A stretch of DNA of 64,000 nucleotides from NCBI GenBank assembly GCA_944324075.1, contig CALUUZ010000002.1, positions 186,001-250,000 on the forward strand. The letters run 5' to 3'. The stretch is from Candidatus Mailhella excrementigallinarum (GTDB lineage: Bacteria; Desulfobacterota; Desulfovibrionia; Desulfovibrionales; Desulfovibrionaceae). Under the pieces are notes generated by a model. That model did not search any database. It worked only from the letters and a program-made list of their open reading frames with translations, and was not told the DNA's origin. The translations under genes were made by a program, and so were the position numbers. Positions 3,174-15,387 of the stretch are shown here, piece by piece. Positions within the stretch are counted from its first letter, which is position 1. The number at the start of each line of letters is the position of its first letter.

Positions 3174-5086
3174 GAAAGTTCTCCTTTGTTTTTGGGGAGG
3201 GCGGGGCCGGTTCCGGTCTTTGCAGGGGATTTCTTTCCGTCCGGGGAGGAAGATGCGCTTTTCGCTCCGGTGGCGGAAGATGAGTCCGCGGAGGAAACGG
3301 CAATGGAATCGGCAGGATGTTCTCCGGCTGTGTCGTCTTCTTTCTCCGTCCGGGCGGGAACAGCGGCGTGCATGGCTTTTGCCCGGACGGCGGCCAGTGC
3401 GGCCGCGGCGCTTCCGCGTTTCGGCATTGCCCCGCGCACGCGGGCGGCGGTTCTGTCCAGCATTTCCGCAATGCGGCCGCGCAGCGCGTGCAGAGGCGAC
3501 GCCGTCCGGCTGCGGCGCAGCGAGCGGAAGCCCGCGCCGAACAGCCCCATCCCCGCCAGCAGCGCAAAGATGTCAAAGCCCGCGAGCTGAGCGGGGCCGT
3601 GGAACAGGGTATCCGGCAGAGCTTCCCCCCCGGTCAGGCCGTTGAGGAAAGGCAGGAGAGCGAGAGCCAGCCCCGCCGCCGCAAGCTGCTCGCCTCGTCC
3701 GGCGGGCTTGTCGCGGGCCCATGCGTGGGTAAGGCAGCAGGCCCAGGCAAAGAAAAAGGTCAGACTTTCCCATGTGGCGCGCTGCGGCAGATCCGCATCC
3801 AGCAGGCGGTTCATCCAGAAGTAGGCGGCCACGGAAAGCGGCAGCCCGGCGATGACGGCGGTGTTTGCGGCGTAAACGCCCTTGGGCACGCTGTCTCCGG
3901 TTTTTCGCTCCCGTGCCTTTTCCCAGAGCAGCAGCCCGGCCGCCATCATGCCCGCGGAGAGCAGGCCGGAAAGAAAGAGCAGGGCGCGCGGCAGAGGCGC
4001 GGCAAAGCGGCCCAGATGCAGGGCGCTGGCGGCATACCAGACGGAGCGGATAAAGGAGGGAGGGGTTTCCGTGCGGGGGTCGAGTACCTCCCCCCTGTCC
4101 ATGCCGGGAATCACGCGAAGCTCGAGGAGATCGGCGGAGGAGCGGCGGGACAGGGCGGAGCTTCTGGCCTGCACGGCCTGCATGCTGATGACGTTTCCGT
4201 CGTGAAAGCGGATCAGCAGCGAACCTGCACCGCAGTCCGGCCAGCGCCGGGCAGCCAGTTCGAGCAGGGGGGCGGGGTCGGGCACGCTGCCGTATTCTTC
4301 GGAAAGCGGCGTGACGGGCAGAGTCCGGGCTGTGGGCGAGGGGGGCTGCATGATGCCCGCGCCCTTGGATTCGCGCACAAAGTTCCGCGCCCCGTCGCGG
4401 TAATGGGGGAAGAGCGTGGAGGGAAGCAGGGACTGGGCCAGAAGCACCAGACCGGAAGCGGTGATGACGAGAAAGAAGGGCAGGGTCAGCCCGCCCGCAA
4501 CGCCGTGCGCGTCGCGCCAGAACGCGAACCGGTTTTCACCGGGCCGAAAAGCGAGAAAATTCCGGAAGAAGTCCCTGCGCAGGCAGACGCCGCTGACGCA
4601 GACCAGCAGCAGGGCAAGAGCCGCCATGCCTACGGCCTTGCGGCCGACGCCGCGATCCAGACCGAAGAGATCGACGTGCAGGCGGTACAGGAACGAGCCG
4701 CCTCCGGTTTCCCTCGCCGCAAGCGCCCGGCCGGTTTCAGGATCGAACAGTTCCGGCGCCATGCCGTGAGGATCGTGCACGGCCTCTCCGCTGGCCCATG
4801 CCGCCGAGGGTACGGGAGAGCGTTCCGTGGGCAGGTTCACGCGCCACATTTCCGCGTCAGGCGCGCGCCGGGTCAGGTAGGCGAGTCCGGCGCGCGCGGC
4901 TTCGATTTTTTCGCGCGTACTGCCGCGCTGCGCCGCGTGATGGGTTTCCGGCTGCATCCAGAAGGTGATTTCGTAGCGGTACAGCGCCAGCGAACCCATG
5001 AAAAAAAGAAAAATTCCCAGCCAGCCGAGGACAAGCCCGGCCCGGGAATGCAGTTCACGCATACTGCTGCGGAAAGGAGCGTTCAT
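3167..5086 (-). CDS. PepSY-associated TM domain protein (putative ferric-siderophore reductase or iron-uptake factor)
   Basis: Inner-membrane protein of 639 residues. The start ATG at 5086 follows GGAGG and overlaps the TGA of the upstream small gene; a longer frame to 5302 is an artefact. TM1 lies at ~16-38 (VLGWLGIFLFFMGSLALYRYE), followed by a periplasmic PepSY-type part and further TM pairs at ~130-150, ~180-205 and ~310-335, and a C-terminal cluster of helices. The last ~100 residues are Ala/Ser/Lys-rich and look disordered. PepSY-TM proteins next to TonB receptors are linked to reduction or release of imported ferric chelates; the exact reaction here is inferred from context. Confidence 0.82.
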   Translation of the reverse strand: MNAPFRSSMRELHSRAGLVLGWLGIFLFFMGSLALYRYEITFWMQPETHHAAQRGSTREKIEAARAGLAYLTRRAPDAEMWRVNLPTERSPVPSAAWASGEAVHDPHGMAPELFDPETGRALAARETGGGSFLYRLHVDLFGLDRGVGRKAVGMAALALLLVCVSGVCLRRDFFRNFLAFRPGENRFAFWRDAHGVAGGLTLPFFLVITASGLVLLAQSLLPSTLFPHYRDGARNFVRESKGAGIMQPPSPTARTLPVTPLSEEYGSVPDPAPLLELAARRWPDCGAGSLLIRFHDGNVISMQAVQARSSALSRRSSADLLELRVIPGMDRGEVLDPRTETPPSFIRSVWYAASALHLGRFAAPLPRALLFLSGLLSAGMMAAGLLLWEKARERKTGDSVPKGVYAANTAVIAGLPLSVAAYFWMNRLLDADLPQRATWESLTFFFAWACCLTHAWARDKPAGRGEQLAAAGLALALLPFLNGLTGGEALPDTLFHGPAQLAGFDIFALLAGMGLFGAGFRSLRRSRTASPLHALRGRIAEMLDRTAARVRGAMPKRGSAAAALAAVRAKAMHAAVPARTEKEDDTAGEHPADSIAVSSADSSSATGAKSASSSPDGKKSPAKTGTGPALPKNKGELSC

Positions 5087-12059: not shown

Positions 12060-12155
12060 CACGAAGGCTCCGGCAGGCCGTGGATACATGCTGTCTCTGC
12101 CCCATGCGGAACACGGGTTGTCCTGCGGCAGCATTTGCTGCCGGGGCGGAGCCGC
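12060..12155. repeat. Interspersed repeat family C, copy 2
   Basis: The sequence from GCCGTGGATACATG through GCGGAACACGGGTTG to TGCGGCAGCATTTGCTGCCG matches, in reverse orientation, 47501-47583, and partly matches 2026-2075. No gene is seen between 11860 and 12200; this repeat accounts for much of that gap. Confidence 0.65.
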
Positions 12156-12208
12156 GCGTCTCGCGCAGAGCCATCAGCACGACGCGGCAGAACGAGTCAA
12201 CTTATCGC

Positions 12209-12238
12209 TTGACAGATTTTCCCCGTCGGCGATATTCT
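12209..12238 (+). promoter_or_regulatory. Promoter of the aromatic amino acid operon
   Basis: A perfect -35 TTGACA (12209-12214), an 18-bp spacer and a -10 TATTCT (12233-12238) place the transcript start near 12245, about 16 nt before the leader peptide ATG. Confidence 0.75.
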
Positions 12239-12260
12239 TTGTCCAGCACAGGAAAACGCC

Positions 12261-12383
12261 ATGCATCACGCCAACCACAACCCCACCCTGAACATCGCAA
12301 GCGGCCAGAACTATTTTGGCGGCTTCTTTTTTTATTTTTACGGGTGGTTTAGCCGGGTCTGTGGCTGCGGGGTGAATGTATAG
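12261..12383 (+). CDS. Aromatic-rich attenuator leader peptide (pheL-like)
   Basis: A 40-codon frame with an AGGAAA ribosome site and ATG at 12261, ending in TAG at 12383. Residues 18-30 contain ten aromatic residues in thirteen: six Phe, three Tyr and one Trp (read as [13 protein letters not shown]). It precedes a terminator and a Phe-pathway operon, as in the enterobacterial pheA leader, although the sequences are unrelated. The peptide itself probably has no function. Ribosome stalling on uncharged tRNA-Phe or tRNA-Tyr would decide termination downstream. Found directly by reading the region; too short for ordinary gene callers. Confidence 0.85.
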
Positions 12384-12440
12384 CGCGACTGATATCGCAA
12401 CACCAGGGGCCACAGGCAAACGCTTGTGGCCCCTTCTTGT
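12359..12440 (+). terminator. Transcription attenuator: antiterminator segment plus terminator hairpin
   Basis: The terminator stem AGGGGCCACA (12405-12414) pairs with TGTGGCCCCT (12425-12434), followed by TCTTGTTTC. The rival segment CTGTGGC (12359-12365), inside the last codons of the leader, is perfectly complementary to GCCACAG (12409-12415) in the 5' arm. A ribosome stalled on the aromatic codons (12312-12350) would leave 12359-12365 free to form the antiterminator. A ribosome reaching the stop at 12383 would cover it and allow termination. Confidence 0.8.
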
Positions 12441-12486
12441 TTCACCGGCCGCAGGCGGAGGCTCCGCAAGCACAAGGAAGGGCATC

Positions 12487-13284
12487 ATGCATCTTGGCAA
12501 ATCCGTACGTCTGGAACGCATTTTCAATCGCGAAACCAAGCGCGCCATCATTGTTCCCATGGATCACGGAGTTTCCGTGGGCCCCATGGAAGGCATCATC
12601 GACATGCGGAAGGCCACCTCGGACATGGCCGAGGGCGGCGCGGACGCCGTACTCATGCACAAGGGTCTGGTGCGGTGCAGCCACCGCGCCTCCGGCAAGG
12701 ATGTCGGGCTTATCGTCCATCTTTCCGCTTCCACCTCCCTCACGCCCCAGAGCAATACGAAAACGCTGGTCGCTTCCGTGGAAGAGGCCATCAAGCTCGG
12801 TGCGGACGGCGTTTCCGTCCATGTGAATCTGGGGGATGAAAACGAGCGCGACATGCTTGCCCAGCTCGGCAGGGTGGCGGAAGACGCCCAGAACTGGGGC
12901 ATGCCGCTCATCGCCATGGTATACGGGCGAGGCCCGAACATCCGCAACAGCTTTGACCCCTCCGTGGTGGCGCACTGCGCCCGTGTGGGCATGGAGCTTG
13001 GCGCGGATGTGGTGAAGGTGCCCTACACCGGAGACGTGGACAGCTTTGCGCGGGTGACGGAATGCTGCTGCATCCCCGTGGTTATCGCAGGTGGTCCCAA
13101 GACCGAGTCTTCCCGCGAATTTCTCCAGATGGTGAAGGAAAGTCTCATGGCCGGCGGGGCGGGCCTTTCCGTGGGGCGCAACGTGTTCCAGCATCCGAAT
13201 CGCGTGCTGCTGCTCAAGGCTCTGCGCGGCATCGTGCATGAGGACAGGAGCGTGGACGAAGCTCTGGCCGTTCTGGGAGAATGA
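12487..13284 (+). CDS. aroA': 2-amino-3,7-dideoxy-D-threo-hept-6-ulosonate (ADH) synthase, archaeal-type AroA'
   Basis: First step of the alternative (DKFP) route to dehydroquinate, which bypasses DAHP synthase. A class I aldolase-type barrel of 265 residues, starting at ATG 12487 after AAGGAAGGG. Motifs: [11 protein letters not shown] near the N-terminus, the active-site-region KVPYTGD and the phosphate-binding IAGGPK, then [10 protein letters not shown]. The same gene order (aldolase, DHQ synthase II, P-protein) is known from Desulfovibrio vulgaris. Controlled by the upstream attenuator. Confidence 0.88.
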
Positions 13285-13285
13285 G

Positions 13286-14275
13286 ATGCGCCGCATTTAT
13301 GTAAAAAGCATTCCCTTTGATCGGGATAACGTGACTCTGGCTCTTGAATCCGGCGTGGACGGGGTGATTGTGGATGCGGCGCATGTGGCGGGTGTGGCCG
13401 GGCTGGCCCGCTGCGACGCGCGCGACGCGGCCTCCATGCCCGTGATCTCCCTGAACGCCAAGGCCGACGAGGAAGAGGCGGCCCGCCGCCTTGCCGCCGG
13501 CGAGGATGTGGTGCTGGCCAGAGGCTGGGAGATCATTCCCGTGGAAAATCTGCTTGCCCATCCCGATCCGAAGGTCTCCGGCCGTGTGGCTCTGGAGGCG
13601 GGTTCGCTGGAGGAGGCGCGGCTTGCGGCGGGCATTCTGGAGCGCGGCGTTTCCACGGTGGTGGTGCTGCCTGAAGGCATGACGGAACTGAAACGGATTG
13701 TGGCCGAGCTGAAGTCCGCGCAGGGGAGCATTTCCCTTGAACCCGCCCGCATTGCGGACGTGCGGCCCGTGGGCATGGGGCATCGCGTCTGCGTGGATAC
13801 CTGTTCCATGCTGTCGCGCGGGCAGGGGATGCTGACGGGCAACTCCAGCGCCTTCACCTTTCTTGTCCATGCGGAGACGGAACATAACGAATATGTCGCC
13901 GCGCGGCCCTTCCGGATCAACGCGGGGGGCGTGCACTGCTACGCATTGCTGCCCGGCGACCGCACCCGTTATCTTGAAGAGTTGAAAGCCGGGGATGAAA
14001 CCCTTATCGTCGGGGCGGACGGTTCCTCGTCTCTGGCCGTGGTGGGCCGGGTCAAGGTGGAAGCACGCCCCATGCTCTATATCGAGGCGGAAAACGCGGA
14101 AGGACAGCGCGGCGGCGTCTTTCTCCAGAATGCCGAGACCATCCGGCTGGTGCGCCGGGACGGCAGGCCGGTCAGCGTGGTTTCCTTGCGGGAGGGAGAT
14201 GAGGTTCTCTGCCATTTTGACTCCGCAGGCCGTCATTTCGGCATGCGCATCGAGGAAGACATCAAGGAAAACTGA
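13286..14275 (+). CDS. aroB': 3-dehydroquinate synthase II (AroB', archaeal type)
   Basis: Converts ADH to 3-dehydroquinate with NAD-dependent oxidative deamination and cyclisation, completing the DAHP-independent branch. 329 residues; the ATG at 13286 lies one base after the stop of the preceding gene. Typical family stretches: GMGHRVCVDTCSMLSRGQGMLTG, FLVHAETEHNEYVAARPFRINAG and GGVHCYALLPGDRTRYL. The operon position between ADH synthase and the P-protein agrees with the assignment. Confidence 0.9.
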   Translation: MRRIYVKSIPFDRDNVTLALESGVDGVIVDAAHVAGVAGLARCDARDAASMPVISLNAKADEEEAARRLAAGEDVVLARGWEIIPVENLLAHPDPKVSGRVALEAGSLEEARLAAGILERGVSTVVVLPEGMTELKRIVAELKSAQGSISLEPARIADVRPVGMGHRVCVDTCSMLSRGQGMLTGNSSAFTFLVHAETEHNEYVAARPFRINAGGVHCYALLPGDRTRYLEELKAGDETLIVGADGSSSLAVVGRVKVEARPMLYIEAENAEGQRGGVFLQNAETIRLVRRDGRPVSVVSLREGDEVLCHFDSAGRHFGMRIEEDIKEN

Positions 14276-14277
14276 GA

Positions 14278-15387
14278 ATGGATCTGACGGAATTGCGGGC
14301 CGCCATCGACGAGGTGGACGGCGAACTGCTGACGCTGCTGCACCGCCGGGCGGAAATCAGCCGTATGGTGGGAGCGGCCAAGAAGGACGAGGGCGGCCCC
14401 GTGTTCCGGCCCGAGCGGGAGCAGGAAGTGGTGGAAAGACTGCTCCGGATCAACCGCGAGAGCAGGGGGGAAGGGCTGCCGGACGAGCACATCGCCCGGA
14501 TATGGCGCGAGATATTTTCCTCTTCCCGCGCCTTGCAGCGGCCTCTGCGCGCGGCGTTTCTGGGGCCGGAGGGCACCTTTTCGCACATGGCGGCGCTGGA
14601 ATGCCTCGGACACAGCATCAGTGCCGCCCCCTGCGAGAATTTCGACGCCGTGTTCCGGGCCGTGTCCGAGGGGACATGCGACCTGGGGCTGGTGCCCCTG
14701 GAGAATTCCCTGCATGGAAGCATCGGTCAGTGCATTGATCTCTTCGCGGAGTATGACGTGCATGTTGTAGGCGAGCATTACAGCCGTATCCGTCTTTGTC
14801 TCATGAGCAGGGAGAGCGGACTTTCCGCCGTAAGGCGGGTCTATTCCCATCCCCAGCCGTTCGGACAGAGCCGGGGCTGGCTGCGCGCCCATCTGCCGGG
14901 CGCCGCGCTCATGCCGGAGGAGTCCACCGCCGCCGCCGCGCTCAGGGTCAGGGACGAGGCCGGTTCCGCCGCCATCGGGCATCCCGGTCTGGCCTCCATG
15001 CTCGGGCTTGATGTGCTGGCTGATTCCCTGGAGGATTCCACTTCCAACTGGACACGTTTCGCCGTCATCGCGCCGGGGCGGGAGGCCCGTTCGCCCCGTG
15101 CGGAACCTGGCACGGCGCTGAAAACTTCGCTGCTGTTCACCGTGGCGCATCGGCCCGGCACGCTGGCGGCTGTGCTCAATATACTCTCCGGGGCGGGGAT
15201 CAACCTGTCCGAGCTGGAGTCGCGGCCCATGCGGGGAAGCATAGGTGAATATGTTTTCTTCCTTGATGCCGTCTGCGACCTGCTGCGGCCGGAGCATGTG
15301 GAAACCCTGGAGAAGCTGAGGGAATGCTGTCAGTCGCTGCGCGTGCTTGGCGTCTATCCGCACGAAACTCCCCGTTCGCGGGGCTGA
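14278..15387 (+). CDS. pheA: Chorismate mutase / prephenate dehydratase (P-protein)
   Basis: Bifunctional cytosolic enzyme making phenylpyruvate from chorismate, 369 residues. The AroQ chorismate mutase domain is at 1-~90 (LRAAIDEVDGELLTLLHRRAEI), prephenate dehydratase at ~95-275 (FLGPEGTFSH, LVPLENSLHGSIG, STSNWTRF), and a C-terminal ACT domain at ~285-360 (HRPGTLAAVLNILSGAGINL, ESRP) for Phe feedback. It starts 2 bp after aroB'. A Phe-dedicated enzyme at the end of the operon explains the Phe-rich leader. Confidence 0.95.
   Translation: MDLTELRAAIDEVDGELLTLLHRRAEISRMVGAAKKDEGGPVFRPEREQEVVERLLRINRESRGEGLPDEHIARIWREIFSSSRALQRPLRAAFLGPEGTFSHMAALECLGHSISAAPCENFDAVFRAVSEGTCDLGLVPLENSLHGSIGQCIDLFAEYDVHVVGEHYSRIRLCLMSRESGLSAVRRVYSHPQPFGQSRGWLRAHLPGAALMPEESTAAAALRVRDEAGSAAIGHPGLASMLGLDVLADSLEDSTSNWTRFAVIAPGREARSPRAEPGTALKTSLLFTVAHRPGTLAAVLNILSGAGINLSELESRPMRGSIGEYVFFLDAVCDLLRPEHVETLEKLRECCQSLRVLGVYPHETPRSRG

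Follow-up and report, generated by a model that had tools for sequence, protein, structure and literature searches.

Our results point to a translational switch that controls aromatic amino acid synthesis in a member of the Desulfovibrionaceae. Specifically, positions 12209-12443 of the window, by which we mean the whole 64-kb stretch of DNA from Candidatus Mailhella excrementigallinarum that was analyzed, very probably constitute a ribosome-mediated transcription attenuator that governs aroA'-aroB'-pheA and is tuned to the pool of aromatic amino acids. The first-pass annotation had described a promoter, a 40-codon leader with aromatic residues at 10 of 13 positions, a perfect 7-bp antiterminator, and a GC-rich terminator ahead of these genes. 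All of these elements are in the sequence, and their coordinates were accurate. The features of the region are as follows.

12209..12238, + strand: sigma-70-type promoter, with TTGACA at 12209-12214 and 10 of 12 matches
12250..12253, + strand: Shine-Dalgarno sequence AGGA, located by sequence 7 nt ahead of the leader ATG at 12261
12261..12383, + strand: leader peptide ORF of 40 codons, with its stop codon at 12381
12312..12350, + strand: regulatory codons (the aromatic run), codons 18-30, with Phe, Tyr, or Trp at 10 of 13
12357..12366, + strand: region 2 (5' arm of the antiterminator), GTCTGTGGCT, inside the leader ORF at codons 33-36
12405..12443, + strand: intrinsic terminator, with a GC-rich stem at 12405-12434 followed by a T-rich tail; its 5' arm, 12408-12417, is region 3
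12487..13284, + strand: aroA', 2-amino-3,7-dideoxy-D-threo-hept-6-ulosonate (ADH) synthase; TIGR01949, 391 bits against a cut-off of 299
13286..14275, + strand: aroB', 3-dehydroquinate synthase II (DHQ synthase II); PF01959, with NF002628 above its cut-off
14278..15387, + strand: pheA, chorismate mutase / prephenate dehydratase / ACT; PF01817, PF00800, PF01842

With profile searches, we found genes for both ADH synthase and 3-dehydroquinate synthase II, the combination by which the DAHP-independent (archaeal-type) aromatic pathway is recognized. We take the operon to end with pheA because a GNAT gene starts approximately 200 nt beyond it, which leaves aroA'-aroB'-pheA as its only members. A family search of the window genome (G000) returned a single AroA' match, the one at 12487..13284. 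That enzyme must therefore supply all three aromatic branches, and the leader in front of it holds codons for all three amino acids. When we looked for a leader upstream of aroA-tyrA in the same genome, none was found.

The window has the parts from which an attenuator is built: a promoter, a short ORF with a ribosome binding site, clustered cognate codons, an intrinsic terminator before aroA', and a mutually exclusive antiterminator that overlaps the leader ORF. Two hexamers are candidates for the -10 element of the promoter, GATATT at 12231-12236 with a 16-nt spacer and TATTCT at 12233-12238 with an 18-nt spacer. The leader contains six Phe codons, three Tyr codons, and a single Trp codon (codon 29), which lies 12 nt ahead of region 2. 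Across all six frames of the window, codons 18-30 are the sole site with at least 8 aromatic residues in 13, and the maxima in 100 block-shuffled copies of the window ranged from 5 to 9 per 13. The terminator reads AGGGGCCACAGGC-AAAC-GCTTGTGGCCCCT at 12405-12434, followed by TCTTGTTTCA, and aroA' starts 44 nt downstream of it. Within the antiterminator, CTGTGGC (12359-12365) is perfectly complementary over 7 bp to GCCACAG (12409-12415), and with G-U pairs the helix extends to 10 bp (12357-12366 with 12408-12417). As a side observation, a second site in the genome (L002, G000:C1:75103-75170) matches the promoter side of the region (66 nt, 12150-12215) at 75% identity.

Because the antiterminator overlaps the leader ORF, the position of the ribosome would decide which of the two hairpins forms. 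We infer the stalling, read-through, and amino acid specificity of the window leader as follows. When charged tRNA-Phe, tRNA-Tyr, and tRNA-Trp are plentiful, the ribosome would cross the aromatic run and reach the stop codon at 12381, where its footprint would lie over region 2, so that the terminator (region 3:4) would form and the transcript would end after approximately 195 nt. When any one of the three is short, the ribosome would stall within 12312-12350. Region 2 follows the final codons of the run by 9-12 nt, a distance that would be just enough to keep it mostly open, and the free region 2 would then pair with 12408-12417, allowing RNA polymerase to read through.

Predicted folding describes the same two states. 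For RNA spanning 12245-12445, the folding energy is -81.9 kcal/mol (z = -4.8 relative to shuffled sequences), and the terminator segment by itself has a z of -6.7. A partial transcript covering 12352-12425 folds into the antiterminator (-29.1 kcal/mol); once the 3' arm is included, the terminator prevails (-39.4 kcal/mol). Pairing between regions 1 and 2 (CCACA:TGTGG) is possible in the window fold, and only 15% of leaders have a region 1:2 hairpin that exceeds shuffles at p < 0.05.

The first-pass annotation had named a lack of conserved aromatic codons in close relatives as grounds for abandoning its reading of a leader and attenuator on an archaeal-type operon. We made that comparison with homologous operons gathered from a 79-genome family search, a named genome collection, and regional fetches, counting as operon loci distinct AroA' sequences that were followed by aroB' and had enough upstream sequence. 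Leaders with an aromatic run were present in 95 of the 99 distinct Desulfovibrionales operon loci, including those of Desulfohalobiaceae, Desulfonatronaceae, Desulfonatronovibrionaceae, and Desulfonauticaceae. This conservation, along with the covarying antiterminator described below, supports the reading. At homologous loci, the position of the leader ORF, the aromatic block, and an ACG-like tail are all conserved. In addition, 91 of 97 homologous leaders have TTGAC ahead of their aromatic block, at a median of 70 nt upstream, compared with 15% of shuffles. A leader was sought upstream of aroA' at L116 and L181 and none was found, and the apparent leaders at L118 and L191 were discarded as false matches. 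At several seemingly leaderless loci, the leader turned out to sit ahead of the first of two tandem aroA' copies or to be in frame with a far-upstream start. A tandem duplication of aroA' heads the operon in L079 (G021), L036 (G015), L040 (G051), L041 (G010), and L088 (G014), and there the leader precedes the first copy.

The alternative pairing itself has been maintained by selection on the RNA. In a set of 65 aligned leaders, 95.5% of the cells in the helix between region 2 and the terminator 5' arm were paired, as opposed to 36-44% in controls in which the helix was slid. Two-sided changes occurred at 5 of its 10 pairs and in 22 cells, versus a mean of 5.9 cells in shuffles, and the covariation score was reached by none of 500 shuffles. 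The terminator stem had two-sided changes at 8 of 11 pairs. One position separates the two structures: in all 65 sequences, the base in alignment column 94 has a partner in region 2 (UA in 41, CG in 16, UG in 6, and AU in 2), yet in 50 of them it has none in the terminator 3' arm, and it is therefore evidently the antiterminator that holds this base. Depending on species, region 2 encodes A-C-G, A-R-G, A-S-G, or S-C-G. Because such changes replace C in the peptide by R or S and keep the RNA pair, what is conserved here is RNA pairing and not peptide. Together, these results show both the anatomy of the attenuator and the evolutionary constraint on its alternative pairing.

That the leader senses Phe, Tyr, and Trp jointly, as the first-pass annotation had suggested, gains indirect support from comparison of codon content with gene content. 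The leader had Trp codons in every one of the 52 trp-containing operons versus 19 of 30 operons that lack trp genes (20 of 31, Fisher p = 5e-6, before one false leader was removed). As a pattern the association is strong, but as a test of independent evolutionary events it is weak, since the AroA' tree shows approximately three changes in trp linkage and offers too few independent pairs for power. The Trp codon nearest to region 2 lies at a median distance of 12 nt in trp-containing operons versus 24 nt in the others that have one; in some leaders, the anchor used for these medians is displaced by a few codons. Furthermore, the aroA' operon leaders contain no Trp codons in six genomes that lack a convincing trpE (G003, G008, G012, G039, G042, and G067, the last with only a 31%-identity match), although G003 and G012 are incomplete assemblies and any single case of trpE absence is uncertain in MAG assemblies.

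Where trp genes are separate, they tend to have a leader of their own. Of 17 trp-unlinked genomes, 14 have an ORF with WW or WWW upstream of the separate trpE. The window genome is one of these: its trp operon has its own leader ORF, MFHPSSRSTFRTMFWWWRVSDVKGGVRPVIF, which contains WWW, and its own terminator, GCCGCCATCC-TCCCGG-GGATGGCGGC-T7. This leader is located as follows.

L194 (G000:C2:364000-380500), reverse-complement positions 3897-4065: trp leader with WWW, just ahead of trpE

In a same-genus relative (L264 / L093, G070:C29:24587-27409), trpE is divergent and adjoins aroA'; a Trp-rich ORF was sought upstream of this trpE and none was found.

Stand-alone AroA' isozymes complete the picture of codon content. 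At least 85% of the aromatic run consisted of one amino acid in the leaders of 24 of 32 isozyme copies (17 Phe and 7 Tyr), which were chosen by eye for a visible leader, so that the count is uninformative about isozymes without one. Phe runs, such as RFFFFFFFSSACG at L072, also occur at L086, L100, L101, and L108, and Tyr runs, such as YAYYYYY at L103, at L054 and L074, all in other genomes. None of the 95 operon leaders was dominated by one amino acid in this way, and 76 of them contained all three aromatic amino acids. Regions 2 and 3 still pair in most isozyme leaders, and compensatory differences are seen between them, e.g., GTTCGCGGC:GCCGCGAAC.

A narrower reading of the window leader is that the same attenuator senses only Phe and Tyr here, the lone Trp codon having been inherited from an ancestral trp-containing operon. 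We consider this possible, if doubtful. Since the trp genes are located elsewhere under their own WWW leader, the single Trp codon may be a relic, and the narrower reading also accords with the preponderance of Phe and Tyr in the codon counts and with the leaders of both same-genus relatives, G042 (no trpE) and G070, neither of which has a Trp codon. However, the Trp codon of the window leader occupies the position typical of trp-containing operons, and the single AroA' of the genome still has to feed the Trp branch.

Other accounts keep the leader and change the sensor. The ribosome could be stalled by nascent-chain sensing of a free amino acid, as in TnaC, and not by a lack of charged tRNA. 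A hydrophobic, aromatic peptide is compatible with the tunnel interactions that this requires; nevertheless, we regard it as improbable, given that the peptide sequence varies freely except for its aromatic density and its RNA-constrained tail, that codon identity tracks pathway content, and that a biosynthetic operon calls for a response of the opposite sign. Less probable still is that the ORF is incidental and that sensing belongs to a 5' untranslated region bound by a protein or metabolite (a riboswitch, a T-box, or an RNA-binding repressor). Although the stable fold of the leader in isolation would permit this, the conserved elements are codons and the 2:3:4 pairings. Moreover, no Rfam model of a T-box or known riboswitch matched the window or the 13 loci searched, and the Rfam leader families (Phe_leader, Trp_leader, and others) likewise gave no match in the window to E = 10 or in the 13 loci to E = 1. 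Finally, intergenic DNA often contains short ORFs and terminators, but the notion of a chance ORF followed by the ordinary, nonregulatory terminator of some upstream transcript is ruled out for practical purposes by the conservation, the covariation, and the chance controls; the neighboring exbB-exbD genes, moreover, are encoded on the opposite strand.

Leaders of this kind also occur in other families of the phylum. A phylum-wide aroB' search yielded aroA' operons in other Desulfobacterota families, and aromatic-run leaders preceded aroA' in approximately 31 of the 43 non-Desulfovibrionales operons with upstream sequence (28 with at least 7 aromatics in 13 plus three with 6 in 13). Examples are MRKTLTATKNYYFYFWYYWFGRGLPTVS and MHRQLRGFYFSYYYFWGYRCASTFKSP. 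The region 2 sequences of these outgroup leaders differ from those of Desulfovibrionales and pair equally well, as in GGTCTGCCCAC:GTGGGCAGACC at L285 and GGTGCGCC:GGCGCACC at L293, both read by eye, and GTCTACCC:GGGTAGAC at L319; at several loci with tandem terminators, e.g., L285, the automatic outgroup pairing scores were based on the second one. Upstream of aroA' at L285, L293, L319, L332, and others, different region 2 sequences are often accompanied by two tandem terminators.

Throughout the phylum, the codons of the leader seem to have been adapted to the genes that follow it: the common operon has mixed codons, isozymes have single-amino-acid runs, and trp operons that stand apart have Trp runs. 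We think it probable, judging from these codon patterns, that the DAHP-independent pathway of Desulfobacterota is run by a repertoire of attenuators, comprising pooled Phe/Tyr/Trp leaders, Phe-or-Tyr isozyme leaders, and Trp leaders, whose codons would have been rewritten as operons split or branches were lost. If so, translation would provide the control that Escherichia coli obtains from DAHP synthase isozymes together with TyrR and TrpR. The leader family also represents a natural experiment on leader sensing, since its codons vary with the isozyme and with the genes of the operon.

The mechanism class is classical leader-peptide attenuation. In the enterobacterial pheA and pheST systems, a short, Phe-rich leader ORF overlaps region 2 of a mutually exclusive antiterminator and terminator. 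The window shares this arrangement of ORF and exclusive hairpins, also upstream of a gene for chorismate mutase-prephenate dehydratase. Unlike those systems, its operon opens with aroA'-aroB' of the DAHP-independent route, its leader mixes Phe, Tyr, and Trp codons and has no covariance-model similarity to theirs, and its host belongs to the Desulfobacterota. The proposed stall-and-switch logic is also that of trpL, the attenuator of the trp operon, and trpL-like WWW leaders are found on Desulfovibrio trp operons that lie outside the aromatic operon. The window leader, in contrast to trpL, would govern the common pathway and the Phe branch with one Trp codon among nine for Phe or Tyr. Multivalent leaders have a precedent in ilvGMEDA, where one leader has Leu, Val, and Ile codons and thereby codons for several end products of a branched pathway. 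The window leader resembles it in this respect but concerns aromatic amino acids, and its codon set varies with operon content and isozyme. In E. coli, the first step is divided among the DAHP synthase isozymes AroF, AroG, and AroH, each of which answers to one aromatic amino acid. AroA' isozymes would show a similar division, except that their specificity would reside in Phe- or Tyr-dominated leaders and not in repression by TyrR or TrpR or in the enzyme. We regard the region as a probable multivalent attenuator for aromatic amino acids that acts on the DAHP-independent pathway and has isozyme-specific relatives, and it provides a concrete, testable regulator for that pathway.

In open-license papers, we found no description of an aroA' leader attenuator or of a regulator for the DAHP-independent pathway. 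The passages searched in a regulon reconstruction for delta-proteobacteria (PMC545781) and in a broad survey of premature terminators (PMC2965389) do not mention an aroA' leader. The attenuator may bear on coregulation that has been published for two species. In D. hydrothermalis, the aromatic cluster goes down together by approximately 3 log2 units under pressure (PMC4162548). In D. desulfuricans 27774, nitrate induces aromatic and trp genes or operons for reasons that the authors call unexplained (PMC5701242). Both transcriptome studies report strong coregulation of this aromatic gene cluster and give no regulator (PMC4162548; PMC5701242). In the same nitrate data set, a tryptophanyl-tRNA synthetase of D. 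desulfuricans 27774 is down by 3.1 log2 (PMC5701242). These leaders could connect the rise in trp and aromatic genes to the fall in the synthetase if they respond to lower Trp charging.
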